A stretch of 58,431 nt of DNA, taken from IMG/VR virus record IMGVR_UViG_3300021425_000043, positions 1-58,431 of that record; one strand, 5' to 3'. The DNA is from a virus. Below the pieces are notes generated by a model that did not search any database, was not told where the DNA came from, and worked only from the letters and a program-made list of their open reading frames with translations. The position numbers and the translations under genes were made by a program. Below, piece after piece: positions 404 through 58,431 of this stretch. Numbering within the stretch: the first letter of the stretch is position 1; each line of letters begins with the position of its first letter.

Positions 404-1420
404 CTATAAAACAACGTTAGCGTTGTCAACGATCCACTTACGCACATCGTTGTGTGATTTGAGTTGTCTGTCTTTGGCCAAACAACCTTTAACTAAGACA
501 ACTTGAAACTCAACTGGTAACTTGTTGTTTAGCTTCATAATGTTTTCCATCATGTCATCCTGTGCTCTAGTAGCTACAGCAGTAGCAAGAGCGTACAACA
601 ACGCTGGGTTGTCGTCTTTCTTGTATGTTGATGGGTCTTTGAGCAACTGATCAATATCTGGTAGCTTGTTTGCAATTTCTTTGAATGCAATAAACTCACC
701 AGCTGGCCCATCACCGACTAGTGATGACACACCAAAGAACAAACGTTCTGGATCTGTGTTTGCCCTGGATAGCTTTTTGCTGACCATTGACCAAGCACGT
801 GGCGTTGGGAATGCATATTCGTCAGCGTCAAACTGTGATAACAGATTAGGTCTGTACTGTATGAACGAGATAACATCTGGGTCGATGTTGTGCTGATAAG
901 CCCACTGCACCCAATCGTCGAGTGTTGGCTCGAGCTCGTAATGTGCAAGTCTGTTACGTACAGGCGATGGCATCTGATAAACAGCTGCTGCATCGGTAAG
1001 TCTGTTGCCGGCACAGATGATTTGCCAACCGGCAGGCAATCTGTATTCACCAATTTGTTTTGTTAGTAACAGTTGTAAGAATGCGTTTTGCGTTGCTGGC
1101 GGTGCAGTTGGTAGCTCGTCGATGAAGAGCAAGCCACGTTCACCGTCGCGTTCAGCGATTGGGAAGACATCAGGCACAGCCCATGATGTAAACCGTTTAC
1201 CGGTTTCTTTGAGCTGTTTAATGTATGGAATACCACGTACATCGACAGGGTCGAACAAGTTAGCACGAAAATCGATGAGCGGAACGCCCATCTCATCGGC
1301 AACTTGTCTTGGTATTTCTGATTTACCAATGCCTGGCCCACCCCATATCATTGCAGGGTAGCCGGCATTGATGCAATCAGTTAGTTCTTGTTTAAGTTTT
1401 ACTGGATTAATTGTGTGCAT
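404..1420 (-). CDS. MoxR-type AAA+ ATPase
   Basis: This 338-residue protein has a clear AAA+ core. The Walker A motif GGPGIGKSE lies at residues 27-35 and Walker B LLFIDELP around 97-104 (D101, E102). The region after Walker B (TQNAFLQLLL, then AGNR) fits the MoxR/RavA group, which often works with a VWA-domain partner as a metal-insertion or remodelling chaperone. Here the probable partner is the metallopeptidase/VWA protein at the opposite window edge. The ATG follows a GGAGGTAAAT ribosome site. In phages such pairs occur as genes of unknown function; roles in virion maturation or host-protein remodelling are guesses. The family call is firm and the function is open. Confidence 0.9.
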   Translation of the reverse strand: MHTINPVKLKQELTDCINAGYPAMIWGGPGIGKSEIPRQVADEMGVPLIDFRANLFDPVDVRGIPYIKQLKETGKRFTSWAVPDVFPIAERDGERGLLFIDELPTAPPATQNAFLQLLLTKQIGEYRLPAGWQIICAGNRLTDAAAVYQMPSPVRNRLAHYELEPTLDDWVQWAYQHNIDPDVISFIQYRPNLLSQFDADEYAFPTPRAWSMVSKKLSRANTDPERLFFGVSSLVGDGPAGEFIAFKEIANKLPDIDQLLKDPSTYKKDDNPALLYALATAVATRAQDDMMENIMKLNNKLPVEFQVVLVKGCLAKDRQLKSHNDVRKWIVDNANVVL

Positions 1421-3439: not shown

Positions 3440-3967
3440 CTACTTGGAGATTGTTCTCCAAGTAATGTTGTAGCGTGTTTTGTTTTCCAGCGGTGTTGAT
3501 ACGCCGTGCGCGAGTTGGTTAAAGAACTCGCGATTGCCAATGATTAGCTCTCCGTTGTGGAGAGTAATCTTGTCGGCGGTGTAATCAAACACTGCTGGGG
3601 CTCCGAGGCTTAAAGATGCGATAGAGCCTTTGAGCTCTTTTTCGTCGTCTTTGTGTTTGTTGAGCTTTTGTCCTGGTTTATATTGATTAATAAGAACGTG
3701 GTTAAAGCTTTCGCCTGTTGTTTTGTTGAGCCAAGTAGTCAAAAGCTTAACTTTTGGTGTGTAGCCGGTGGCTATATGTGAACGGCCAGAGTAAATGTAG
3801 TTTAATCCGCGTTCGCCAAGCCAAGCTGTGCCTCTGCCGAATTCTTGTGTGAAGCTGAGCTGTTGCAGTTCAACAAGCAGAGGAGAAGCAAACTCAGGCT
3901 TGAGGGTCTGAGTTGCTTTTCGTAGTTGTGCTCCTGTGTTGTTAGTGTAAAGTGTTTCAAAATTCAT
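3440..3967 (-). CDS. alkB: AlkB-like Fe(II)/2-oxoglutarate dioxygenase
   Basis: This 175-residue protein has the full AlkB active-site set. The iron ligands are H105 and D107 (in NKHKDDE) and H154 (QLAHGVS). The 2-oxoglutarate/substrate motif RYNITWR supplies R165 and R171, matching the family RxNxTxR. AlkB enzymes remove alkyl damage from DNA or RNA bases by oxidative demethylation. Here it would act in the cytoplasm to protect phage DNA, or possibly host RNA. Length is close to compact phage and bacterial AlkBs. It is translated from AAGGAGAAACAA-ATG, 10 nt after the 57-residue coiled-coil gene, in a two-gene unit under hairpin element B. Confidence 0.93.
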   Translation of the reverse strand: MNFETLYTNNTGAQLRKATQTLKPEFASPLLVELQQLSFTQEFGRGTAWLGERGLNYIYSGRSHIATGYTPKVKLLTTWLNKTTGESFNHVLINQYKPGQKLNKHKDDEKELKGSIASLSLGAPAVFDYTADKITLHNGELIIGNREFFNQLAHGVSTPLENKTRYNITWRTISK

Positions 3968-8625: not shown

Positions 8626-10731
8626 ATGGCATATAGTAAAAAGAAAAAACAAACAGTAAAAGAAGCTCAAGAACTTGAACTAGCAAAGAGTCAATTTAAT
8701 GCGTATGTTAGAGCAAGAGACCATGGCCATGATGATTATATTGACATGGCTAAAAAATGCGATGCTTATTATAGAGGTGAGCAATGGGATGAGTTTGATA
8801 TGCAACAGCTCGATGACCAAGGTAGGCCTGCTTTAACCATTAATACTATTTTACCTACCATAAATGCAGTTTTAGCAGAACAAAGTTCAAAAAAAGCAGA
8901 TATACAATTTAAGCCTAGAGGCGGAGGCGATCAAGATATCGCAGACGTTCTTACACAGGTATATGGTTATATTTCAGACTACAACAAACTTGATTGGGTT
9001 GAATCGCAAGTATTTTCCGATGGTCTTATCCAAGACCGTGGTTGGTTTGATGTTCGTATTGATTTTACTGAACACGTGCAGGGCGAAATAACCATTGAAT
9101 CAAAAGACCCGTTGGATATTCTTATAGACCCTGATGCAAAACATTATGACCCAAAAACTTGGAATGAGATATTTGAAACTAAGTGGATGAGTTTAGATGA
9201 AATAGAAGAGACCTATGGGCAAGATAAAGCTGATAAGTTAAGAATGTTAGCAGAAACAGGTACCACTTTAGGCGCAGACTCTATGGAGTTTGAAGAAGAG
9301 AGATACGGAGATACTGACGAATATAACTACGGACAACAGTACCCCGGGGATCCTGAGAATGCACGAATGCTCAGGTCTATTAGAGTAATAGAAAGACAAT
9401 ATTACAGGTTAGATGATTGCATGTTTTATGTTGACCCTGTTACAGGCGATAAAAGAAAAGTTCCTAATCATTGGTCAAAAAAGAAAAGAGAAACGTTTGC
9501 TGATGAATATGCTCTAGAGATAATGGAGAAAAAAATGCGACGGGTCCGTTGGACAGTGACAGCAGATTCAGTTGTCTTGTTTGATGACTATTCTCCTTAT
9601 GACCATTTTACACTCGTGCCTTATTTTCCATACTTTCGAAGAGGAAAACCGTTTGGCATGGTCCGAAATTTATTATCTCCACAAGAACAATTAAATAAAA
9701 TTTCTTCACAAGAGCTGCACATTGTTAATACAACAGCTAACAGTGGTTGGATAGTGGAATCTGGTTCTCTTTCTGGTATGACAGCAGATGATCTGGAAGA
9801 ACACGGTGCAGAAACTGGCTTAGTTTTAGAGTATAATCGTGGCTCTACACCTCCTGGTAAGATACCACCTAATCAAATACCTACCGGTTTAGATAGAATC
9901 AGCCAAAAAGCAGCAGTTAATATTAAACAAATAAGCGGCATTGGAGATGCTATGTTAGGGCAAACAAGCCCGGAGCTTTCTGGTGTGGCAATTAAGTCCT
10001 TAGAAAATAGAGGCTCTTTGATGTTACAGGTGCCTTTAGATAACTTAGCAAAGACAAGGCAGTATCTTGCTGAAAAGATATTATCAATGATTCAGGCTTA
10101 CTACACAGAAGAACGTGTTATTCAAATAACAGACCAATCTGATCCTTACAAACCTAGAAAAAAATTAAGAGTAAATCAAATGACACCTGAAGGTGAAATT
10201 ATTAATGATTTAACCTTAGGAGACTATGATGTTATTGTAGGTACAGCTCCTGCTAGAGACAACTTTGATGAAATGCAGTTTGCTGAAGCTATTGAACTTA
10301 GAAGCGCGGGTGTCCCAATACCAGATGATATGATTGTTGAATACTCTCACCTATCACGTAAAGCAGATATTGCAGAAAGAATTAGACAAATGCAGGGCAC
10401 TGCTCCACCGTCTGACGAACAGATACAGTTACAACAGTTCCAAATGGAGTCGCAGATCAGAAGTACGCAGCTTGAGATTGCTAAATTAGAAGCAGAAGTT
10501 GCAAGATTACAAACAGAAGCGCAACTTAACCAGGCTAAGACGCAAGCAACTGCAGCAGATCCACAGTTGAAGGTTGCTGAATTACAGAGTAAAATCCAAA
10601 CTAAGCAAGAGGAGCTTCAGTTACGTGAAAGGCTATCAGCTTTAACGAATGACATGAGGAAAAACCAAAGCGATACTGCAGCTGCTGCCAAGATGGCGGC
10701 TGCGGCCATGAAACCAACAGGAGGTAATTAA
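8626..10731 (+). CDS. portal protein, P22-like
   Basis: The 701-residue protein begins MAYSKKKKQTVKEAQE. I prefer ATG 8626 over an in-frame GTG at 8617. Residues ~60-75 (GRPALTINTILPTI) are the hallmark of P22-type portals, followed by the clip/wing region (LFDDYSPYDHFTLVPYFPYF, RNLLSPQEQLNKI) and a C-terminal Gln-rich coiled coil (QLQQFQMESQIRSTQLEIAK). The dodecameric portal is the DNA entry pore and scaffold nucleator. The long C-terminal helix with a poly-Ala end could form a P22-like barrel. It lies between terL and the scaffold gene. Confidence 0.92.
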   Translation: MAYSKKKKQTVKEAQELELAKSQFNAYVRARDHGHDDYIDMAKKCDAYYRGEQWDEFDMQQLDDQGRPALTINTILPTINAVLAEQSSKKADIQFKPRGGGDQDIADVLTQVYGYISDYNKLDWVESQVFSDGLIQDRGWFDVRIDFTEHVQGEITIESKDPLDILIDPDAKHYDPKTWNEIFETKWMSLDEIEETYGQDKADKLRMLAETGTTLGADSMEFEEERYGDTDEYNYGQQYPGDPENARMLRSIRVIERQYYRLDDCMFYVDPVTGDKRKVPNHWSKKKRETFADEYALEIMEKKMRRVRWTVTADSVVLFDDYSPYDHFTLVPYFPYFRRGKPFGMVRNLLSPQEQLNKISSQELHIVNTTANSGWIVESGSLSGMTADDLEEHGAETGLVLEYNRGSTPPGKIPPNQIPTGLDRISQKAAVNIKQISGIGDAMLGQTSPELSGVAIKSLENRGSLMLQVPLDNLAKTRQYLAEKILSMIQAYYTEERVIQITDQSDPYKPRKKLRVNQMTPEGEIINDLTLGDYDVIVGTAPARDNFDEMQFAEAIELRSAGVPIPDDMIVEYSHLSRKADIAERIRQMQGTAPPSDEQIQLQQFQMESQIRSTQLEIAKLEAEVARLQTEAQLNQAKTQATAADPQLKVAELQSKIQTKQEELQLRERLSALTNDMRKNQSDTAAAAKMAAAAMKPTGGN

Positions 10732-10732
10732 T

Positions 10733-11770
10733 ATGGCAAAAGATAATAACACCCCGGATGATAAAATCGAACTAGAGGTAATGCCTGGAGCAGACCCTAT
10801 TTCTGAAGAAGATGCGAAAGGGTTTGAAGTTGATATGAACTTTGAATCACCTGAAGAAGATGAAATAGAATTTCCCAAGGAGGAAGAAATTGAAGAAGTC
10901 GAAGAGCTTAAGGCTGAAGAAGAACCATCTGAAGAGTCTGAAGAGGAAGCAGAAGAGGAAGATGTTGAACCTGCAGACGAAGACACAGAAGATTCAGGAG
11001 AAGAAACAGTACTGGCAGATGATGAGGGAGATGCACAACAACCTGTTGAACCAGTACAGGAAAAATCTGAGGAACCAAAAGAACCTATGATTCCAAAGTC
11101 TAGGTTTGATGAAGTTCTAGCAAAACAAAAAGCGTTACAAAAGAAAGTAGAGGAACTTTCTAATCCTGTTGAAAGAATAGAAAAAGCTCCAGAGTTTGAC
11201 TTTGATGCTAAAGAAGTTGAGTACCAAGAGTTGATTCTAAATGGACAAGCCGCAGAAGCCGCTAAGTTAAGAGCAGAAATTAGAGCAGCCGAGAAGCAAA
11301 CTATGATGTTTGAGGTACAAAACCAAATGGGCCAAACGGTGCAACAGAGCACTGAAACTATGAGACTACAGCAAAAAGCAGCTGAAGTTGCAGAGAAGCA
11401 TCCGATTCTAGATGAAAGTAGTTCAAAGTATGATGAGGTAAAAACTCAAGAAGTTTTAGGTTTAAGAGATGCATACATTATCCAAGGGTATGAAGGCGCA
11501 GATGCTTTGCAAAAAGCAGTAGACTTATTAATTCCTACTGTTGTGGAACCTGTACCTCTTAATGAACCTACTCCAGTGCAACAAAAAGTTATAGAGAAAA
11601 AACAAGTTGCTAATACTAAAAAGAAGATAGAAGCAGCTGAAAAACAGCCACCTGCTATGAAAGGTAAAAACAAAACAGAAAAAAAAGTTGATATTAATGC
11701 AATGTCAATCGAAGAATTTGATGCTTTACCTGCTGAAACTTTACGCAGAATGCGTGGTGATTTTGGATAA
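10733..11770 (+). CDS. scaffolding protein
   Basis: The 345-residue protein starts 1 nt after the portal stop with GGAGGTAATTAAT-ATG. Residues 10-115 are extremely acidic (EEEIEEVEELKAEEEP). The middle is a coiled coil (SRFDEVLAKQKALQKKVEEL; AAEAAKLRAEIRAAEKQ) and the C-terminus is basic (KNKTEKKVDINAM), ending RRMRGDFG. An acidic/helical body with a basic C-terminal capsid-binding tail, between portal and capsid genes, is the standard scaffold pattern. The protein would direct prohead assembly and then leave. There is no protease domain. Confidence 0.85.
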   Translation: MAKDNNTPDDKIELEVMPGADPISEEDAKGFEVDMNFESPEEDEIEFPKEEEIEEVEELKAEEEPSEESEEEAEEEDVEPADEDTEDSGEETVLADDEGDAQQPVEPVQEKSEEPKEPMIPKSRFDEVLAKQKALQKKVEELSNPVERIEKAPEFDFDAKEVEYQELILNGQAAEAAKLRAEIRAAEKQTMMFEVQNQMGQTVQQSTETMRLQQKAAEVAEKHPILDESSSKYDEVKTQEVLGLRDAYIIQGYEGADALQKAVDLLIPTVVEPVPLNEPTPVQQKVIEKKQVANTKKKIEAAEKQPPAMKGKNKTEKKVDINAMSIEEFDALPAETLRRMRGDFG

Positions 11771-33838: not shown

Positions 33839-34087
33839 ATGGAAGACAACAAAATAAAAGAAATAAACTTCAACGGCAACGTTTACGCTATTGAAGATCT
33901 AACACCTAGAGCAATCGAAGGTTTTAATGCTTTGTTTAAGGCACAACAGAAACTTAACGATCTTGCTGTAGAAGTAAAAATCGTGCAGGGAGGGCAAAGT
34001 CATTTAAGTGCGGAATTGGAAAAAGTCATTACAGAAGATAAAATCAAGCCTCAGCCACCAGTCGAAGAAGAAAAAGCCGAAAAGTAA
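33839..34087 (+). CDS. hypothetical protein, DUF6447-like, 82 aa
   Basis: It begins MEDNKIKEINFNGNVYAIED behind TAAGGAGTATTTAC. INFNGNVYxIEDLxPxA followed by an amphipathic helix (IEGFNALFKAQQKLNDLAVE) is a pattern I recall from small cyanophage and pelagiphage genes (DUF6447). The acidic tail (PPVEEEKAEK) overlaps nothing; the lysozyme ATG is 1 nt downstream. Function is unknown. Confidence 0.6.
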   Translation: MEDNKIKEINFNGNVYAIEDLTPRAIEGFNALFKAQQKLNDLAVEVKIVQGGQSHLSAELEKVITEDKIKPQPPVEEEKAEK

Positions 34088-34088
34088 A

Positions 34089-34541
34089 ATGGATATCGAA
34101 AAGTGCAAAGCTGATATCAAAAGGCACGAAGGCGAAGTTCTTGAGATATATGAAGATAGTTTAGGCTATAAAACACTAGGCGTTGGCCATCTGTGCCAAC
34201 CAGGCGACCCAGAGTACGATTGGGAAGTAGGTACACCGGTGAGTCAGGAAGTAGTTGATATGTACTACGAAGATGACTTTGATAAACACTACAAAGAAGC
34301 TATTCACGTCTTTGGTAGTGAAGAAGATTTTGATAAATTACCCGAAGATATACAACACGTATTGGTTAATATGTGTTTTAATCTAGGAGGTAGCAGGCTT
34401 TCTAAGTTTAGAAATATGTTAGATGCCTGTAGAAAACATGAATGGGAACGAATGGCTGCTGAAATGGAAGACAGTAGGTGGTTTAAACAAGTAGGAAGAA
34501 GGAGTCTAGAACTACAAGCATTAGTTCGTAATACTGTATAA
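34089..34541 (+). CDS. endolysin, T4-like lysozyme (GH24)
   Basis: The 150-residue form starts at MDIEKCKADIKRHEG. A longer frame from 34008 would lie inside the previous gene and add a non-homologous basic tail. The catalytic triad of T4 lysozyme (E11, D20, T26) corresponds to E14, D23 and T29 with identical spacing (HEG...YEDSLGYKTLGVGH). The C-terminal SRWFKQVGRRSLELQ matches the family's helix. It cleaves peptidoglycan at lysis. There is no signal sequence, so holin-dependent release is expected from the membrane proteins encoded at 33597, 39790 or 40266. Confidence 0.92.
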   Translation: MDIEKCKADIKRHEGEVLEIYEDSLGYKTLGVGHLCQPGDPEYDWEVGTPVSQEVVDMYYEDDFDKHYKEAIHVFGSEEDFDKLPEDIQHVLVNMCFNLGGSRLSKFRNMLDACRKHEWERMAAEMEDSRWFKQVGRRSLELQALVRNTV

Positions 34542-39818: not shown

Positions 39819-40269
39819 CATAGTAGGGAGCGTAGCTCCAACATTAGGTGCGGCACTCGGTGGCCCTTTAGGTGGCATGGCAGGTGACGTTATATCCAAA
39901 GTATTAGGTGTAGAAAACAATCCAGCATCATTAGAAAAAGCAATTGCACAAGCAACACCAGAACAATTGATGGAAATTAAAAAAGCAGAGATAGAGTTCG
40001 AAGCTAAGATGAAAGAGCTGGATGTAGACATATACAAAATAGAAGCTGAAGAGAAGAAAGACGCACGTAAACACTTTTCTAAAGACTGGACTGCTAGGAT
40101 TATAGGTATAGCCATGGTTGGTGGTTTTCTTGGTTATATCTTTCTTGTAACGCTACAACCACCAGAGCAAAATAGTGAGGCTCTGATTAATTTAGTGCTA
40201 GGTTACTTGGGTGGCCTAGCGTCTGCAGTAATATCATTTTATTTCGGAGCCTCCAATAAACAAGAATGA
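39790..40269 (+). CDS. holin-like membrane protein, 159 aa
   Basis: I use TTG 39790 because GGAGG lies 12 nt upstream; the ATG at 39799 (MKKLLTNIVG) is the alternative. Residues ~8-40 are a Gly/Ala-rich amphipathic segment (VAPTLGAALGGPLGGMAGDV). Next comes a charged helix (AEIEFEAKMKELDVDIYKIE), then two membrane segments (IIGIAMVGGFLGYIFLVTL; LVLGYLGGLASAVISFYFGA). This matches the three-segment holin-type proteins common in marine phages. It would permeabilise the inner membrane for the GH24 lysozyme. Confidence 0.75.
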   Translation: MENMKKLLTNIVGSVAPTLGAALGGPLGGMAGDVISKVLGVENNPASLEKAIAQATPEQLMEIKKAEIEFEAKMKELDVDIYKIEAEEKKDARKHFSKDWTARIIGIAMVGGFLGYIFLVTLQPPEQNSEALINLVLGYLGGLASAVISFYFGASNKQE

Positions 40270-40616
40270 CCGAAGCGATTACGGTAATCCAAGAAGTTGG
40301 TTTTCCTATAGCAGCTGCAGCTGGTTTAGGTTGGTTTATTTATAAACTAATCATGCGTATTGTGGACGGTATGGAGACAAAACTTGATACCGTAGATGAA
40401 AAAGTAGAATCTCAAATAGCAGCCATAGAAGAACGACTAGGCACAAAACTTGACTCACAGCATGGTATTTTAGTAGCCTTAATAGACAGGGTGCGTAGTT
40501 TAGATAACGAAATTATAAGACAAGACACTTTGATAAAGACTATTCTTGGCGTACCTCAACTAATAGATAGCAATAAAATTGCTAAGGCGGATAGAGATGA
40601 CCAAAGAAAAGATTAA
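40266..40616 (+). CDS. BhlA-like holin / membrane protein, 116 aa
   Basis: The ATGA overlap couples it to the previous gene. One N-terminal membrane segment (residues ~12-33, GFPIAAAAGLGWFIYKLIM) is followed by a long coiled coil (METKLDTVDEKVESQIAAIE ... LVALIDRVRSLDNEI). This topology fits BhlA/UviB-type bacteriocin-release holins. It could instead be a lysis regulator for the first holin. Its last 20 nt overlap csgF. Confidence 0.65.
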   Translation: MTEAITVIQEVGFPIAAAAGLGWFIYKLIMRIVDGMETKLDTVDEKVESQIAAIEERLGTKLDSQHGILVALIDRVRSLDNEIIRQDTLIKTILGVPQLIDSNKIAKADRDDQRKD

Positions 40617-41139
40617 AAGAAAAAGAGGCAGACCCTCTAACGCAGAACTAAAGCGTAGAAAAGAAGAAAGGGAAAAGGATCTTATCCTAAGGGTATTGCT
40701 TGCGATAGGGGTTTTTCTAATTGGTGCTATAGTTTCACAAAACTTATTAGCAGACCAAATGACCCATAAGTTTAAGTCTCCTTCTTTTAGTGGAGAAAAT
40801 ACTTCTAGTCACTACCTAACAATAGATAATGTTGAATACACTAGAAAAATGTCTATAAAAGCAGAATTAAAAGCTTTGCAAGACCAAATAAAAAGAGACA
40901 AAGAGAACACAACCCTTGCTAGATTTGTCCGTAATTTAGAGTCTAGGATTTATGCACAGTTGTCTAGACAACTTGTAGAAGCTTTGTTTGGAGAGACTCC
41001 AAGCGATAATGGTACAATTGAGTTAGAAGGTAATACAATTACCTATAGTGTAGTAGACGGTATAATAACTCTAACTGTGGTGGACTCGGACGGCAATGAA
41101 ACAATTATTCAAATTCCTATCGGTAGTTTTACTTTCTAG
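40597..41139 (+). CDS. csgF: CsgF-like curli assembly protein
   Basis: I start at ATG 40597 (MTKEKIKRKRGRPSN); an earlier in-frame start lies inside the previous gene. Residues 1-29 are strongly basic and include an AT-hook-like RGRP. Residues 30-51 are a hydrophobic membrane/signal segment (LILRVLLAIGVFLIGAIV). From residue 54 the chain aligns with mature CsgF: MTHKFKSPSFSGENTSSHYL, as in the E. coli segment that plugs CsgG. A helix (ARFVRNLESRIYAQLSRQLV) and the beta domain GTIELEGNTITYSVVDG, then LTVVDSDGNETIIQIP, follow. CsgF couples the pore to extracellular nucleation. The long basic leader is unusual. Confidence 0.85.
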   Translation: MTKEKIKRKRGRPSNAELKRRKEEREKDLILRVLLAIGVFLIGAIVSQNLLADQMTHKFKSPSFSGENTSSHYLTIDNVEYTRKMSIKAELKALQDQIKRDKENTTLARFVRNLESRIYAQLSRQLVEALFGETPSDNGTIELEGNTITYSVVDGIITLTVVDSDGNETIIQIPIGSFTF

Positions 41140-41956
41140 TTGTGCGTCCTTAATATTTGACCCGATAGAAAATAACATAGGCCCAATCCAAAAAATAGAA
41201 AGGGCAGAGGTAGAAACACTCGCAGTATCTAATCTTTCTTCTGTTGGAGTGCCAACACGTAAACCAGTCATTGCAGTTTATCCTACAAGTTTTACAGACC
41301 AAACAGGACAAAGGTTAAGCAATTCAAGCTACGCTTCTTTCTCTACTGCAATAACTCAACTACCAAGTGCCTATTTAATAAGAGCTTTGCATAAAGCAGG
41401 CTCGGATCACGGGGGGTTTTTTACTGTAGTTGAAAGGGTAGGTTTAGATAACTTAACTAAAGAACGCCAAATTATAAGAAGCACTAGAGAAAAAGAAGAT
41501 AATGCCAAGGAGCTAGGGGCCCTTTTGTTCGCAGGTTTAATTATAGAAGGGGGTGTGATAGGATATGAGAGTAACGTTACGTCTGGCGGTGCTGGAGCAC
41601 GCTATTTAGGCTTAGGTGCAACCAAAGCGTATAGAAGAGATTCAGTAACAGTACAACTTAGGTTGGTATCTGTTACAACGGGAAAAGTTTTGCTAGAGAC
41701 ACTGGTGACTAAAACAATACTAAGTGCCTCATTAAGTAACGATGTTTTTCGATTTATTTCTGATAATACAGAGTTAGTCGAAATAGAAAGTGGTGTTGTA
41801 AGAAACGAATCCGGAGGATTGGCTTTAAGGGCCGCCATAGAAACAGCAGTTCTGCAGATAATTAAGGAGGGTACAGAAGCAGGCTATTGGAGTATACATG
41901 AAAAATATAAAACTATTGATTGCGATGCTGATTGTGTCGCCTCTGTACGCGGCTGA
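41096..41956 (+). CDS. csgG: CsgG-like outer-membrane curli secretion channel lipoprotein
   Basis: 286 residues. The lipobox LLSSC makes C16 the mature lipidated residue. The body aligns throughout with E. coli CsgG: FTDQTGQ, ASFSTAITQLPSAYLIRAL, VVERVGLDNLTKERQIIRST, and the highly conserved EGGVIGYESNVTSGGAGARY, then LRLVSVTTGKVL, TKTILSASL and VFRFI. CsgG forms a nonameric 36-strand pore. The constriction Phe (F56) is kept in SFSTA, while the N55 position is Ser and the Y51 alignment shifts. The start lies 44 nt inside csgF, so translation is coupled. Bacterial csgE, csgB and csgD are absent. Confidence 0.95.
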   Translation: MKQLFKFLSVVLLSSCASLIFDPIENNIGPIQKIERAEVETLAVSNLSSVGVPTRKPVIAVYPTSFTDQTGQRLSNSSYASFSTAITQLPSAYLIRALHKAGSDHGGFFTVVERVGLDNLTKERQIIRSTREKEDNAKELGALLFAGLIIEGGVIGYESNVTSGGAGARYLGLGATKAYRRDSVTVQLRLVSVTTGKVLLETLVTKTILSASLSNDVFRFISDNTELVEIESGVVRNESGGLALRAAIETAVLQIIKEGTEAGYWSIHEKYKTIDCDADCVASVRG

Positions 41957-42608
41957 TAACGAAATATATGTAGATCAAGCCGGTGCTACTTTAAACCTAG
42001 ACTTAGAACAACTTGGTTCTGGTAATATTATAGGCGGGCTTAATGCTGCTGCTGGTAGTATGACTGCTCTTGACCTTGATGGCGCTACTATGACTTTAGA
42101 CATAAACCAAATAGGTGGTTCTAATACATTTTTAGGGGATATTTTAGCTGACAATTTTACAGGTTTTTTTGAGTTTGATGGAGACAGTAATGACTTTACA
42201 ATCCAAGTAGACCCTACTAATACCTATGGAGCTGACGGTAGTAATCTTAATGTAGACGTTACAGGAGACAGCAACGACTTTACGTTAAACGTAGGGACAA
42301 CAGCTTTAACTGGTAATTTAGACTTAGATTGGATTATAAATGGTTCTAGTAATACATTTGATTTTGATATTAACTACGATGGTGCTACATCTTATGTAGA
42401 CGTAGATGGTGATTCTAACAATGTTACATTTGATGGTTCAGGCTATGCAGGCGGATATTTTTACCTTGACCAAACAGGTAATAGTAGAACATTTAATATT
42501 CAACAACTGAGTACCCAAGATAATGACTGGCTTAAAATTATATCTAACGGTAATGGTGGTACTGTTTGCGTCATTCAAAACGACCAAGGCACAGGCACAA
42601 GCTGTTAA
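41898..42608 (+). CDS. secreted curlin-like repeat protein
   Basis: The 236-residue protein has a signal peptide (MKNIKLLIAMLIVSPLYA, cleavage before ADNE). It then has seven degenerate curlin-like strand-turn units: QAGATLNLDLEQLGSGN, INQIGGSNTF, DGDSNDFTIQV, TGDSNDFTLNV, NGSSNTFDFDI, DGDSNNVTFD and DQTGNSRTFNIQQ. The G-x-S-N turn and alternating hydrophobic strands mirror CsgA/CsgB QxGxxN repeats, though acidic Asp often replaces Gln. Two Cys sit near the C-terminus (C224, C236). It begins 59 nt inside csgG, so it is the likely cargo of the phage CsgG pore. It may form an amyloid-like fibre or coat. Confidence 0.75.
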   Translation: MKNIKLLIAMLIVSPLYAADNEIYVDQAGATLNLDLEQLGSGNIIGGLNAAAGSMTALDLDGATMTLDINQIGGSNTFLGDILADNFTGFFEFDGDSNDFTIQVDPTNTYGADGSNLNVDVTGDSNDFTLNVGTTALTGNLDLDWIINGSSNTFDFDINYDGATSYVDVDGDSNNVTFDGSGYAGGYFYLDQTGNSRTFNIQQLSTQDNDWLKIISNGNGGTVCVIQNDQGTGTSC

Positions 42609-43632
42609 TATTGGAGATATTTCTGAACTAAAAGGGACTGCTAGCGTCTTAAGAGACCAACCTTACGGCGCTGAATTAGATTTTGACATTCAACAAATGG
42701 ATGACGTTCGTACAACTAACGGACGTGTAGGCATAACATTCCTGGACAATTCTATTGTACGACTGACGGAACATTCTAAACTTGTCATAACTGAATACAT
42801 TTACGACCCTGACCCTTCAAAAGGTAAAATGGCCATGACGTTTGCTAGCGGTACGGCTAGGTTTATAAGCAGTAAACTAGGCAAGATTGATAAAAAAAAC
42901 ATAAAACTTTCTACACCTACAGCTGACATTGCAATTCGTGGGACTGATTTTACGTGTACCGTAGACGAACTTGGACGTTCGCTTATTATTTTACTACCTG
43001 ATGCTAACGGTTTATCTAGTGGCGAAATACTTGTTACAACCGCTGCAGGCACAGTTACTTTAAACAGACCTTATGAAGCTACGACTGTTAATGTATTTGA
43101 AAACGCACCTAGTAAACCTGTTATATTAGATTTAACTTTAGACATAATAGACAACATGTTGATTGTTAGTCCTCCGGACGAATCAAAGTTATCCACAGAA
43201 TCATCCACAACGTCCGGAAATACTGGGGCAATTTTAGATATAGACTATTTAGAGTTTGAGGATTTAGAGTTTGATTATCTAGCAGAAGACTCGCTTGAAT
43301 TTAGTGAGCTTGATATAAATTATTTAGATGTTAATTTTTTTGAAGATTTATTAGAAGTTATAGAAGAATTAGATACTTTGGGAGACCAGGCATTGACTAC
43401 AGGTTCAGTGCTGCAGGGCACAACCTTTGGGCAAGATTTAGTTACGCAAATTACAACTTTTAAACAAGATGAAAGCATTATTTTAGAAAGAGCAGTAACG
43501 CAAGCTACTAAGTTGACCCTAAACATATCGCAGGGCTATACTATAATATTACTGCAGGATGGTAAAACACAACAAGTGTTAATAAATGGTGGAGGTGACT
43601 CTACTATAAGGATTACACAGGGGTCAGGATGA
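42523..43632 (+). CDS. secreted FecR-domain protein
   Basis: 369 residues with a signal peptide (MTGLKLYLTVMVVLFASFKTTKAQA). A FecR domain spans ~30-180 with its markers: RTTNGRVGITFLDNSIVRL, TEHSKLVITEY, GTARFISSK and STPTADIAIRGTDF. The second half is acidic (DIDYLEFEDLEFDYLAEDSL) and ends with a small beta motif (LNISQGYTIILLQDG). FecR domains sense or transmit signals in the periplasm. In bacteria, single FecR-domain proteins are often encoded next to CHASE2 adenylate cyclases, exactly as here. It starts 86 nt inside the curlin-like gene; M11 (42553) is an alternative start. Confidence 0.85.
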   Translation: MTGLKLYLTVMVVLFASFKTTKAQAQAVNIGDISELKGTASVLRDQPYGAELDFDIQQMDDVRTTNGRVGITFLDNSIVRLTEHSKLVITEYIYDPDPSKGKMAMTFASGTARFISSKLGKIDKKNIKLSTPTADIAIRGTDFTCTVDELGRSLIILLPDANGLSSGEILVTTAAGTVTLNRPYEATTVNVFENAPSKPVILDLTLDIIDNMLIVSPPDESKLSTESSTTSGNTGAILDIDYLEFEDLEFDYLAEDSLEFSELDINYLDVNFFEDLLEVIEELDTLGDQALTTGSVLQGTTFGQDLVTQITTFKQDESIILERAVTQATKLTLNISQGYTIILLQDGKTQQVLINGGGDSTIRITQGSG

Positions 43633-45380
43633 AGAAATGGATTTCGTTATTAGCAATACCAATACTAGCTATACCACTGCTGTTTAACTGGCAGGCACTA
43701 GAGATACTTAAATTAAAAACATTTGATGCTTTCGTACAAAAACAAGATCCATCTGGCTGGTTTGTAACTTTAGATATAACAGAAGAAGATGTAGCAACTG
43801 CAGGTGGGTGGCCGTACCCGCGTCAGGACTTGGCACGCATTCATTTAGATTTATTAGAAGCAGGAGCTTTAGGTGTAGGTTGGGTTGTTGCTTTTCCACA
43901 AGCAGATAGGTTTGGTGGCGACCAAGCATTTGGAGATGCTTTGTTACAAGGTGCGAGTGTTATTGCTACTTTTGAAGGTGGGGCTTCGTATGCACCTACC
44001 ACAGGCACAGTCATACTAGGAGATGGTATACCTATAGAAGCTATAAAAGCTCAAGGTGTTATTGGAAATGTACCCGTGCTAGCAGAGTCAGCTTACCAGG
44101 GGCTGGCAGTTGCACGAACTGACGTAGATAATTTAGTTAGACGTTTACCCTTACTATTACAAACACCTGATGGTTGGACGCCGTCTTTTGGTATACAAGT
44201 AATGAAGATGATTGGTGGCGCAGATACGTACATTATTAAAGGGCAGCAAGGGCAGATAGAAGAACTGACTGTACCTAACTACGCACAAATACCTGTAGAT
44301 AGCATTGGGCGTCGTTGGGTGTCTTGGGTTGATACGCCAAGCACAAGCCTAGAAGAGATGGATGTACGAGATAAATTTGTGTTTATAGGCGTGAGTGCAA
44401 AAGGTGTTATGCCTCAAATAGCTACGCCAGTTGGATTGTTGTACCCACATGAGATACAAGCTGCACTAGCTGAGAGTATGACAATGGATGTACCAGCTAT
44501 ACCAGGCAATGCTCTATTATATGAATTACTTATATTAGTTACAGTACTAACCTTAGCCATAGTTATAATACGTACATTAGGGCTCGTCGGAACTTTAGTA
44601 GGGACCGTGGGCCTCGTATCGTTAACCGCGGTCGGAGGTTGGTACTTAATTGCATCGAATATACTTATAGATGTTACTTATAGTATATTATCAGCCATAC
44701 TTATATCTATTCAAGAATTTTATTTACGCTTTAACGAACAATTTAAACTTAGACAATTAATAAAGAAACAGTTTGAACACTACTTAGATCCGAAACAAGT
44801 TGCACGATTACAAAACAACCCTGGCTTATTACAATTAGGTGGAGAAAAACGTATATGTACATTCTTGTTCACAGACGTCAGAGGGTTCACGAATCTGTCC
44901 GAAAAATTATCTCCTGAAGAAGTAACAGAAATAATGAATAAAGTTCTTACTGTACAAGTTACATGTATTCAAGCACATGGTGGTATGGTAGATAAGTTTA
45001 TAGGCGACGCATGTATGGCCATCTTTAATGCCCCCCTATCTATAGATGAACATGAAAAACGTGCAGTCGCCTGTGCTCAGGATATGCGTACGGCTATTCG
45101 CATGCTGCAAAAAGAATTGTCCGAACCAATTGCAATAGGCATAGGTGTTAATACAGGCGAAGCAGTAATAGGTAACATGGGCTCAGATACTAGGTTTGAT
45201 TATTCAGCAATAGGAGATGCGGTAAATACGGCTGCACGATTAGAGAGTGCAACTAAAGAAGCTGGAGTAGATATTTTAATTGGAGAAACTACTGCTAAGA
45301 AGATGTTGTATGATCTGACACTATTAGCTCCTATAAAAGTAAAAGGTAAAGCAAAACCTTTAAAGGTGTATACTATATAA
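43629..45380 (+). CDS. CHASE2-domain class III adenylate/guanylate cyclase
   Basis: 583 residues. One N-terminal membrane helix (4-20) is followed by a CHASE2 extracytoplasmic sensor (~25-290: WFVTLDITEEDVATAGGWPY, RHLPLLL-like RRLPLLLQT). Three membrane helices (~298-362) and a catalytic domain (~405-583) follow. Catalytic residues are complete: metal-binding D416 (TDVRGFT) and D460 (FIGDA), purine-specifying K456 (VDKF) with S526 at the Thr/Asp position (DYSAIGD), and transition-state N533 and R537 (VNTAARLE). It should convert ATP to cAMP at the inner membrane; Ser instead of Thr leaves slight doubt on base specificity. ATGA overlap with the FecR gene implies a sensor pair. Such a cyclase is highly unusual for a phage. 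Confidence 0.92.
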   Translation: MKKWISLLAIPILAIPLLFNWQALEILKLKTFDAFVQKQDPSGWFVTLDITEEDVATAGGWPYPRQDLARIHLDLLEAGALGVGWVVAFPQADRFGGDQAFGDALLQGASVIATFEGGASYAPTTGTVILGDGIPIEAIKAQGVIGNVPVLAESAYQGLAVARTDVDNLVRRLPLLLQTPDGWTPSFGIQVMKMIGGADTYIIKGQQGQIEELTVPNYAQIPVDSIGRRWVSWVDTPSTSLEEMDVRDKFVFIGVSAKGVMPQIATPVGLLYPHEIQAALAESMTMDVPAIPGNALLYELLILVTVLTLAIVIIRTLGLVGTLVGTVGLVSLTAVGGWYLIASNILIDVTYSILSAILISIQEFYLRFNEQFKLRQLIKKQFEHYLDPKQVARLQNNPGLLQLGGEKRICTFLFTDVRGFTNLSEKLSPEEVTEIMNKVLTVQVTCIQAHGGMVDKFIGDACMAIFNAPLSIDEHEKRAVACAQDMRTAIRMLQKELSEPIAIGIGVNTGEAVIGNMGSDTRFDYSAIGDAVNTAARLESATKEAGVDILIGETTAKKMLYDLTLLAPIKVKGKAKPLKVYTI

Positions 45381-45626
45381 ATGCCAAGAAACTATAAATT
45401 AGAATACGAAAGATATCACAAGTCACCTGAGCAAAAGAAACGTCGTGCGGCACGAAATAAAATACGCAGAGAGCTATTAAGTAGTGGTAGAGTTAGAAAA
45501 GGAAGTCGTGTTGATGTACATCATAGAGATGGAAACCCAGAAAATAACTCTCCAGGCAACATTGTTTTGCAAGATAGGTCAAAAAACCGTTCTTTTGCCA
45601 GAAATAGCAAATCTGGGAAAAAATGA
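45381..45626 (+). CDS. HNH-like small protein, 81 aa
   Basis: It begins MPRNYKLEYERYHKSPEQKK immediately after the cyclase stop. The core VDVHHRDGNPENNSPGNIVL, then QDRSKNRSFARN, is the HNH/zinc-finger-like core (HHRDGNxxNNxxxNIVLQDRSxNR) seen in phage HNH nucleases and in a small phage protein family near packaging genes. The first His pair could bind metal; the final HNH His is missing after NIVL, so catalysis is uncertain. It is the last gene of the rightward block. Confidence 0.7.
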   Translation: MPRNYKLEYERYHKSPEQKKRRAARNKIRRELLSSGRVRKGSRVDVHHRDGNPENNSPGNIVLQDRSKNRSFARNSKSGKK

Positions 45627-57267: not shown

Positions 57268-57446
57268 TAAGTTAACCTCCATAATAAATAAATAATACAC
57301 CCGAGGCCGATTCCGACACCGAGCAGAAGCAACGAGTATTGAATACTAGTTGCAAGACCGAATAATAAAAACAACACAGCTGTGCCGGTCAACACAGAAA
57401 TACCAAAGTCTTTGGCATATTGTTTACATTTTGATAACTTCTCCAT
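57267..57446 (-). CDS. two-pass membrane protein, 59 aa
   Basis: MEKLSKCKQYAKDFGISVLT starts at ATG 57446 behind GGAGGCTCCCT; the longer frame upstream is the metallopeptidase gene in another phase. Two membrane segments (ISVLTGTAVLFLLFGLATSI; LLLLGVGIGLGCIIYLLWRL) form a hairpin. It overlaps the metallopeptidase end by 23 nt and the next start by one base. With the next two genes it forms a small membrane-protein cluster. Confidence 0.6.
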   Translation of the reverse strand: MEKLSKCKQYAKDFGISVLTGTAVLFLLFGLATSIQYSLLLLGVGIGLGCIIYLLWRLT

Positions 57447-58431
57447 AGGGAGCCTCCTCTGCATTAGTTGATATAAATAACACTGGATATTGTGGTTTGT
57501 CTCCAAAATCTGATTCATGCACCTCAAGATCAGTAAGATAGACAAGAGCAGCAACATTTGGATAATTAGCATTAACAACATCAATTACTGGGCTAATACT
57601 TGTACCACCTCTGCCTTTGTATGTAATTTCAAGAGGCAATGATTCACGCGTGTACTCGCATATATCTTGTACTTCATAGTCACATTGAATAAACTGCACA
57701 CGCTCAGGGTTGAGCTCATGCAATATGTACGAAGTTTCAGAAGTAAACTGTGCTAACTCGTCATCTGAAATAGAACCAGATGTATCTACCGCAATCGCAA
57801 TCTCTTCGAGACATGGATTATGGAGACTAGGCAGATACATGCCTTGGCCAATGAATCGTCTGTTAGGACGAGCCCATGTAAAATCAGATTTGTTGTTCGC
57901 ACGTAAGAAACGAGCCAACACAGCTTTCCAATCAACTTTTGGATCTGTAATTTCTGACACTAGTTTTTGCATATTGCCAGATAGTTTGCCTTGTGCTTTA
58001 GCAGCTTCAGCTGCTTGGTTAACTGCTACTTGCAGTTCCGATTCAATAGCACTAGCAGTACCGCTTGTACCATCAGAATCGGGATGATCCAGCACGCCAC
58101 CACAACCACCGCTATCTTTGTATGCAGCGTCCCATCCCTGAGGAGGTTCAGGTAGCATATTGTAGATAGCTTCGGTGGTCATGTTTTCGTACTGGTCATC
58201 CACCAGACCGCCTTTAGGCAAAATAAAACCTTCAGCTATGAGATGGTTGTTGATAGCGTAGTCAGCTGCAACATTCCATTTGTGACCGTTGCGTTCTTGT
58301 CTACGCGTGTGATGCATAAGAACCAGGTGCATAACTTCGTGCGCCAGGAAACCCACACGCTCCATCTCTGTAAGCTTTTCAAACCACTTGGGATTGTAGA
58401 ACAAATGTTTACCGTCTACTGCACCAGTTGG
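57424..58431 (-). CDS. metallopeptidase/VWA-like protein (DUF2201-type), 5' end cut by window edge
   Basis: The open frame continues to the last base, so the start lies outside; 335 residues are visible. The N-terminal part has a zinc-peptidase motif FLAHEVMHLVLMHHTRR (HExxH plus a following His). The C-terminal part is a VWA-like domain with MIDAS IAVDTSGSISDDE, a Thr/Ser loop GRGGTSISP and Asp in LVYLTDLEV. This two-domain form matches DUF2201 proteins, which pair with MoxR ATPases. The probable partner is the ATPase at 404-1420. The pair may chelate or insert metals, or remodel a target protein. Confidence 0.9.
   Translation of the reverse strand, partial: PTGAVDGKHLFYNPKWFEKLTEMERVGFLAHEVMHLVLMHHTRRQERNGHKWNVAADYAINNHLIAEGFILPKGGLVDDQYENMTTEAIYNMLPEPPQGWDAAYKDSGGCGGVLDHPDSDGTSGTASAIESELQVAVNQAAEAAKAQGKLSGNMQKLVSEITDPKVDWKAVLARFLRANNKSDFTWARPNRRFIGQGMYLPSLHNPCLEEIAIAVDTSGSISDDELAQFTSETSYILHELNPERVQFIQCDYEVQDICEYTRESLPLEITYKGRGGTSISPVIDVVNANYPNVAALVYLTDLEVHESDFGDKPQYPVLFISTNAEEAPYGEVIKM

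Follow-up and report, generated by a model that had tools for sequence, protein, structure and literature searches.

What would a phage gain from a membrane-bound sensor cyclase, and which signal could such an enzyme pass on inside an infected cell? This question is raised by a virus record of 58,431 nucleotides (IMGVR_UViG_3300021425_000043; the whole analysed stretch is referred to here as the window), for which a first-pass annotation, made from the letters alone, had proposed a membrane adenylate cyclase that has an intact active site and would control host CRP/cAMP directly or interact with cyclic-nucleotide defence systems such as CBASS or Pycsar. Our follow-up places the cyclase within a cassette for curli secretion, and we consider it probable (roughly 60%) that it is the signalling output of this mobile, phage-borne cassette, in which FecR would act on CHASE2 and thereby on the production of cAMP. 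Membrane cyclases under strong purifying selection are encoded, as part of such an amyloid-secretion cassette, on hundreds of contigs of marine viruses; what a phage gains from the cassette is a matter of debate, the proposals being sibling capture, a block of superinfection, and lysis control.

The cyclase gene and its active site

The cyclase ORF is a real gene of 583 codons with an ATG start, which overlaps the stop codon of the preceding FecR gene by 4 nt (ATGA). Pfam assigns CHASE2 (PF05226) to residues 13-309 (E 5.8e-29) and Guanylate_cyc to residues 410-581 (E 2.5e-22), both with scores far above chance. The proposed layout of one helix, CHASE2, three helices and cyclase is borne out by hydropathy and by an AlphaFold2 model of the monomer (mean pLDDT 84.8), in which helices at residues 2-18, 295-316, 319-342, and 350-382 are arranged around the CHASE2 and cyclase folds. 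Thus, the protein combines the elements of a CHASE2 sensor cyclase, i.e., an N-terminal TM helix, CHASE2, further TM helices, and an output domain. Furthermore, a Foldseek comparison of the modelled catalytic domain with CyaC and CyaB resulted in TM scores of 0.8-0.85 (normalised to the target) and an rmsd of about 1.5-2 Å.

In the active-site alignment, D416, K456, D460, S526, N533, and R537 were located exactly where the first-pass annotation had put them, and they provide the residues characteristic of class III (class IIIb) enzymes: two metal-binding Asp, a substrate-binding Lys and Ser, as well as the transition-state Asn and Arg. K456 occupies the position of the Lys that selects adenine in the solved enzymes CyaC and CyaB and lies, as in these, within a VDKFIGD motif, whereas the guanylyl cyclase Cya2 contains DEFMGD, with Glu at the corresponding position; S526 aligns with the Thr of CyaC and CyaB. 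Since K456 resembles CyaC and CyaB but not Cya2, and Ser occupies the Thr site, the window protein is predicted to be an adenylate rather than a guanylate cyclase, an adenine specificity that is read from its sequence.

These residues are conserved well beyond the window. At least 600 stretches in IMG/VR encode relatives of the cyclase, and in an alignment of 78 near-full-length viral sequences (including that of the window, to which the others are 54-94% identical) D416, K456, D460, N533, and R537 are 100% conserved (78/78), while position 526 is occupied by Ser in 47 and by Thr in 31 sequences. The dN/dS ratio against near relatives is 0.09-0.15, and the gene is under purifying selection. 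A placement among known inactive cyclases was not found, as no catalytic residue has been lost in the relatives, apart from the cyclase of Melnitz (L083:6917-8968), which has Ser in the column of the catalytic Asn (N533) as well as Asp in the Ser/Thr column and may be altered or inactive. With its active site intact, the window protein thus appears to be a functional phage adenylate cyclase of the CHASE2 type.

The curli cassette and its phage carriers

The cyclase is the terminal gene of an operon of overlapping genes in the order 116-aa membrane protein, CsgF, CsgG, curlin, FecR, and cyclase (Table 1). The Curlin_rpt match of the window's curlin-like protein is marginal (9 bits), and members of the same family from Melnitz and the Caulobacteraceae score above the cut-off. 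Pfam matches to CsgE or CsgD were not found among the scanned cassette ORFs, and predicted sigma-70 promoters are no more frequent in the region than in shuffled sequences. The HNH-like ORF that follows the cyclase is conserved mainly within the lineage of the window phage.

Table 1. Coordinates of features in the window, with residue numbers for the domain layout of the cyclase.
Feature	Position	Strand	Basis or remark
ATPase (phrog_1297)	404..1420	-	at one end of the window
2OG-Fe(II) oxygenase, AlkB-like	3440..3967	-	PF13532
Lysozyme	34008..34541		
116-aa protein, one TM helix and coiled coil	40266..40616	+	in 31/31 loci reaching that far
CsgF, curli pore accessory protein	40579..41139	+	PF10614, E 3e-16
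CsgG, outer-membrane curli pore	41096..41956	+	PF03783, E 8.5e-49
Curlin-like (CsgA/B) secreted repeat protein, 236 aa	41898..42608	+	homologues in HTVC008M and Melnitz are annotated as curlin
FecR-domain periplasmic protein, signal-like N-terminus	42523..43632	+	PF04773, E 3.3e-11; stop overlaps cyclase start
CHASE2 and class III adenylate cyclase	43629..45380	+	Pfam, active-site alignment, hydropathy, AlphaFold2, Foldseek
Layout of the cyclase	residues		TM ~5-23; CHASE2 13-309; TMs ~296-316, 319-342, 343-365; cyclase 406-583
HNH endonuclease-like small ORF	45381..45626	+	HNH_3, E 2e-5, just below Pfam cut-off; adjoins the cassette, outside the unit
DUF2201 metallopeptidase/VWA gene	57424..58404	-	at the other end of the window

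A curli (T8SS) module has been described in HTVC023P-type podophages and pelagimyophages by Wittmers et al. (2022), who name an adenylate cyclase and FecR among its genes and report transcripts of the module (PMC9599517). Therefore, the core of our finding was already published for SAR11 phages; in the accessible parts of that paper, CHASE2 is not named as such. Like the described modules, the window has CsgF, CsgG, and CsgA/B genes followed by FecR and adenylate cyclase genes in one phage locus, and it shares with HTVC008M and Melnitz the order of small TM protein(s), CsgF, CsgG, curlin, FecR, and cyclase. It lacks the additional curlin gene that separates FecR from the cyclase in these myophage modules, and the window cyclase is 31-32% identical to theirs. 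Wittmers et al. further state that the module follows a histidine kinase gene (PMC9599517). At this position the window encodes the 116-aa protein, which, judging from its location, is probably the product of the "HK" gene of the literature, but no kinase family match was obtained with Pfam for 17 members of its family. As the 116-aa gene is common to HTVC008M and Melnitz, the missing kinase match calls the name "HK" into question and not the membership of the window cassette in the module.

The constancy of the cassette was assessed in 80 IMG/VR loci that had been selected by cyclase similarity alone, together with the window. Counting for each gene only those loci with sufficient upstream DNA, FecR was present in 61/61, the curlin-like gene in 53/53, CsgG in 41/41, CsgF in 35/35, and the 116-aa gene in 31/31 loci; few of the virus records are near-complete. 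A gene for a holin-like protein with three TM helices flanks the cassette in many loci, being located before it in 13 and after it in 18. This switching of sides indicates that the cassette moves as a unit to which the holin-like gene does not belong.

Within the unit, foreign genes were found between FecR and cyclase in some loci, including several of the window's own lineage. In that lineage the gap represents an insertion spot (L002:2095-3041, L005:6563-8023, L007:5106-5483, and L009:7624-8001), which is empty in the window; by sequence, the inserts resemble a cytidylyltransferase, an FkbM-like methyltransferase, and a DNA cytosine methyltransferase. Divergence is also uneven across this boundary: when compared with positions 41096-45380 of the window, locus L015 has very close CsgG, curlin, and FecR genes (dS 0.1-0.3) and a distant cyclase (dS 0.9), while the reverse applies to L002. 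This mosaic suggests recombination near the boundary of FecR and cyclase and, together with the inserts, implies that these two genes are not an inseparable pair.

The terminase, portal, and polymerase of the window are nearest to those of phiA008/KPP25-like podophages, with phiA008 as the best named match of the terminase (51%). The terminase is 84-90% identical to those of two other cassette carriers and 33-36% identical to those of HTVC023P-type carriers. This distance from the HTVC023P type indicates that a separate podophage lineage carries the cassette. Including the HTVC008M/Melnitz myophages, the curli cassette is thus present in at least three phage lineages, the third of which, a podophage lineage, is newly described here. 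Cassette genes were also observed on contigs within MAGs that have been called Neomarinimicrobiota, Pelagibacter, Flavobacteriaceae, and Maricaulis (L090 (PBPT01000002.1), L091, L092, L095, L096, L098, and L146). As the 116-aa or HNH genes, which are phage-specific, occur on most of these contigs, they are likely phage contigs that were binned into MAGs.

Curli operons with FecR and cyclase genes in bacteria

According to Wittmers et al., FecR and cyclase are absent from bacterial T8SS operons (PMC9599517). This is contradicted by operons that we identified in Hyphomonas sp. TMED17 (on a contig of 705 kb; L094) and in two Caulobacteraceae MAGs (L093 and L099), which share with the window the order of CsgF, CsgG, curlin(s), FecR, and CHASE2 cyclase and thus constitute a bacterial homologue of five genes of the cassette. 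These operons are chromosomal, their flanking genes are ordinary bacterial ones (e.g., FAA hydrolase and TonB receptors), and the phage 116-aa gene is absent from all three. All three derive from MAGs, two of them from the same sampling series. The cyclases of these operons are about 100 aa longer than that of the window, with 34-35% identity.

Such operons are rare. Canonical bacterial csg operons have CsgF, CsgG, and a curlin-like subunit in common with the window, and neither FecR nor cyclase was among the genes detected in 19/19 curli loci that were sampled elsewhere in the same order (Caulobacterales-type), one of them being truncated by the end of its contig. Moreover, a full-length FecR of the cassette kind was found in 1/385 sampled alphaproteobacterial genomes and in 1/105 genomes of the family, and the single positive genome of each sample was that of Hyphomonas. 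A bacterial curli operon ending in FecR and CHASE2 cyclase is therefore a rare arrangement that is reported here for the first time, and its FecR-CHASE2-cyclase arm is a possible origin of the puzzling extra genes of the phage cassette.

In a quick IQ-TREE run, the cyclases from phages and from the Hyphomonas and Caulobacteraceae curli operons grouped in a single clade (SH-aLRT 100), to the exclusion of 30 other CHASE2 cyclases from Alphaproteobacteria. A clade comprising only the phage cyclases was not rejected (p-AU 0.77), but the tree gives no direction of transfer, and the bacterial copies could in principle have descended from phages.

The predicted signalling role and its alternatives

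In the reading that we favour, CsgG and CsgF would form an outer-membrane pore for the secreted curlin-like protein, FecR would read the state of the export machinery or of the cell surface and act on CHASE2, and the cyclase, as a class IIIb homodimer, would produce cytoplasmic cAMP in infected cells. Neighbourhoods outside the cassette point to the FecR step. FecR and CHASE2-cyclase hits are separated by no more than about 6 kb in at least 15 alphaproteobacterial loci (e.g., G333:C172, G327:C40, and G288:C2), clusters in Campylobacterota combine a CHASE2 cyclase with FecR, a phosphodiesterase, and TPR proteins (PMC9239204), and in a biofilm operon of Burkholderia a FecR-domain protein is encoded beside a CHASE2 kinase (PMC5192318). 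The cyclases of the Campylobacterota and of many Alphaproteobacteria share the domain layout and the FecR neighbour with the window, but they are not described with curli genes, and the sampled alphaproteobacterial ones form a separate clade. For the window FecR, the nearest solved fold is the cell-surface signalling domain of PupR, a weak match to a model of low quality beyond its N-terminal beta domain (pLDDT 59); a FecI sigma factor or TonB-dependent FecA was not found among the scanned cassette neighbours. Given these neighbourhoods and the PupR-like model, the window FecR is best read as a periplasmic partner of CHASE2 and not as an iron-citrate regulator. Its C-terminal tail matches the pattern NGGGxSxIxITQ in 65/72 sequences; an interpretation of this tail as a curlin half-repeat was dropped, since the tail profile scored curlins no better than shuffled proteins.

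For the window proteins themselves, we infer both catalysis and signalling from FecR to CHASE2. A more far-reaching version, in which a complete transmembrane circuit from amyloid export or cell-surface state through FecR and CHASE2 to a cyclic nucleotide was taken whole from a rare bacterial operon and spread among unrelated marine phages, is put forward tentatively, as possible rather than probable. If true, it would represent a dedicated virus-encoded pathway from sensor to second messenger that is independent of host CRP. The bacterial operons make the signalling of the cassette testable in a laboratory strain.

The direct control of host CRP put forward in the first-pass annotation would mean that phage cAMP drives the host's CRP regulon and that the curli neighbours are incidental. 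The intact active site of the AC type is consistent with this, as are the CRP-family proteins of some possible hosts (4-7 cNMP-binding hits in the donor-like Hyphomonas and Caulobacteraceae genomes). However, the curli neighbours are invariant and hence not incidental, and the phage brings no receptor, as neither the window nor 30 related virus records encode a cNMP-binding (CRP-type) domain. Furthermore, the hosts of known carriers are SAR11 or OM43 bacteria, and a CRP-type domain was found in 2/60 genomes and missing from 58/60 genomes of the Pelagibacteraceae, the family of known SAR11 hosts, which may not be that of the window phage's host; this near absence leaves no obvious cAMP reader in known SAR11 hosts. 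We therefore consider a cyclase that acts alone on host CRP unlikely and this role unsupported for the window. A class III cyclase of Pelagibacter's own was considered as well and rejected: both hits in the 60 genomes lie on cassette contigs with the phage-specific 116-aa gene, which most likely derive from phages and entered the MAGs during binning.

The lack of an apparent cAMP reader in the phage and in Pelagibacteraceae would also fit a mere passenger, i.e., a cyclase retained from the ancestral bacterial operon after its signalling had been lost in infected cells, and so would the loss of the catalytic Asn in Melnitz and the absence of the cyclase from some modules reported by Wittmers et al. 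(PMC9599517). Such a decay is at odds with the five invariant catalytic residues and with a dN/dS of about 0.1 in a fast-evolving phage gene, which makes this explanation similarly unlikely.

Besides the capture of siblings proposed for the curli genes by Zaragoza-Solas et al. (PMC7029224), a role of the pore in lysis has been proposed for Melnitz (PMC9004378), and the cassette, with its pore and membrane proteins, might accordingly regulate the timing of lysis with the cyclase as trigger. The frequent flanking by a holin-like gene and the constant company of the 116-aa TM/coiled-coil protein agree with this. However, the window has its own lysozyme and holin-like genes, the bacterial operon copies are devoid of lysis genes, and the holin-like gene, by changing sides, is placed outside the unit, so that control of lysis appears rather improbable.

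Finally, a function in defence or counter-defence, with the cyclase making or flooding a nucleotide so as to activate or block an effector in the membrane, is very unlikely and unsupported for the window: PADLOC PycC models do match the cyclase domain (E 1e-30), but they cover the shared class III fold only, a hit expected for any class III cyclase, CHASE2 and Lys456 with Ser/Thr526 suit an adenylate sensor cyclase, and a PycTM effector is missing from the window and from the 30 related virus records. A PycTM gene (PF18967, E 9e-25) does occur in the Caulobacteraceae MAG L093 (positions 10482-11072), 445 bp downstream of the homologous curli-FecR-CHASE2 cyclase operon, and is absent beside the operons of the sister MAG L099 and of Hyphomonas.

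With respect to the window as a whole, no terminal repeat or other proof of a complete genome was found in it. In a circular contig, the ATPase and DUF2201 genes at its two ends would directly follow one another on the minus strand, which hints at a near-complete, circularly permuted genome.
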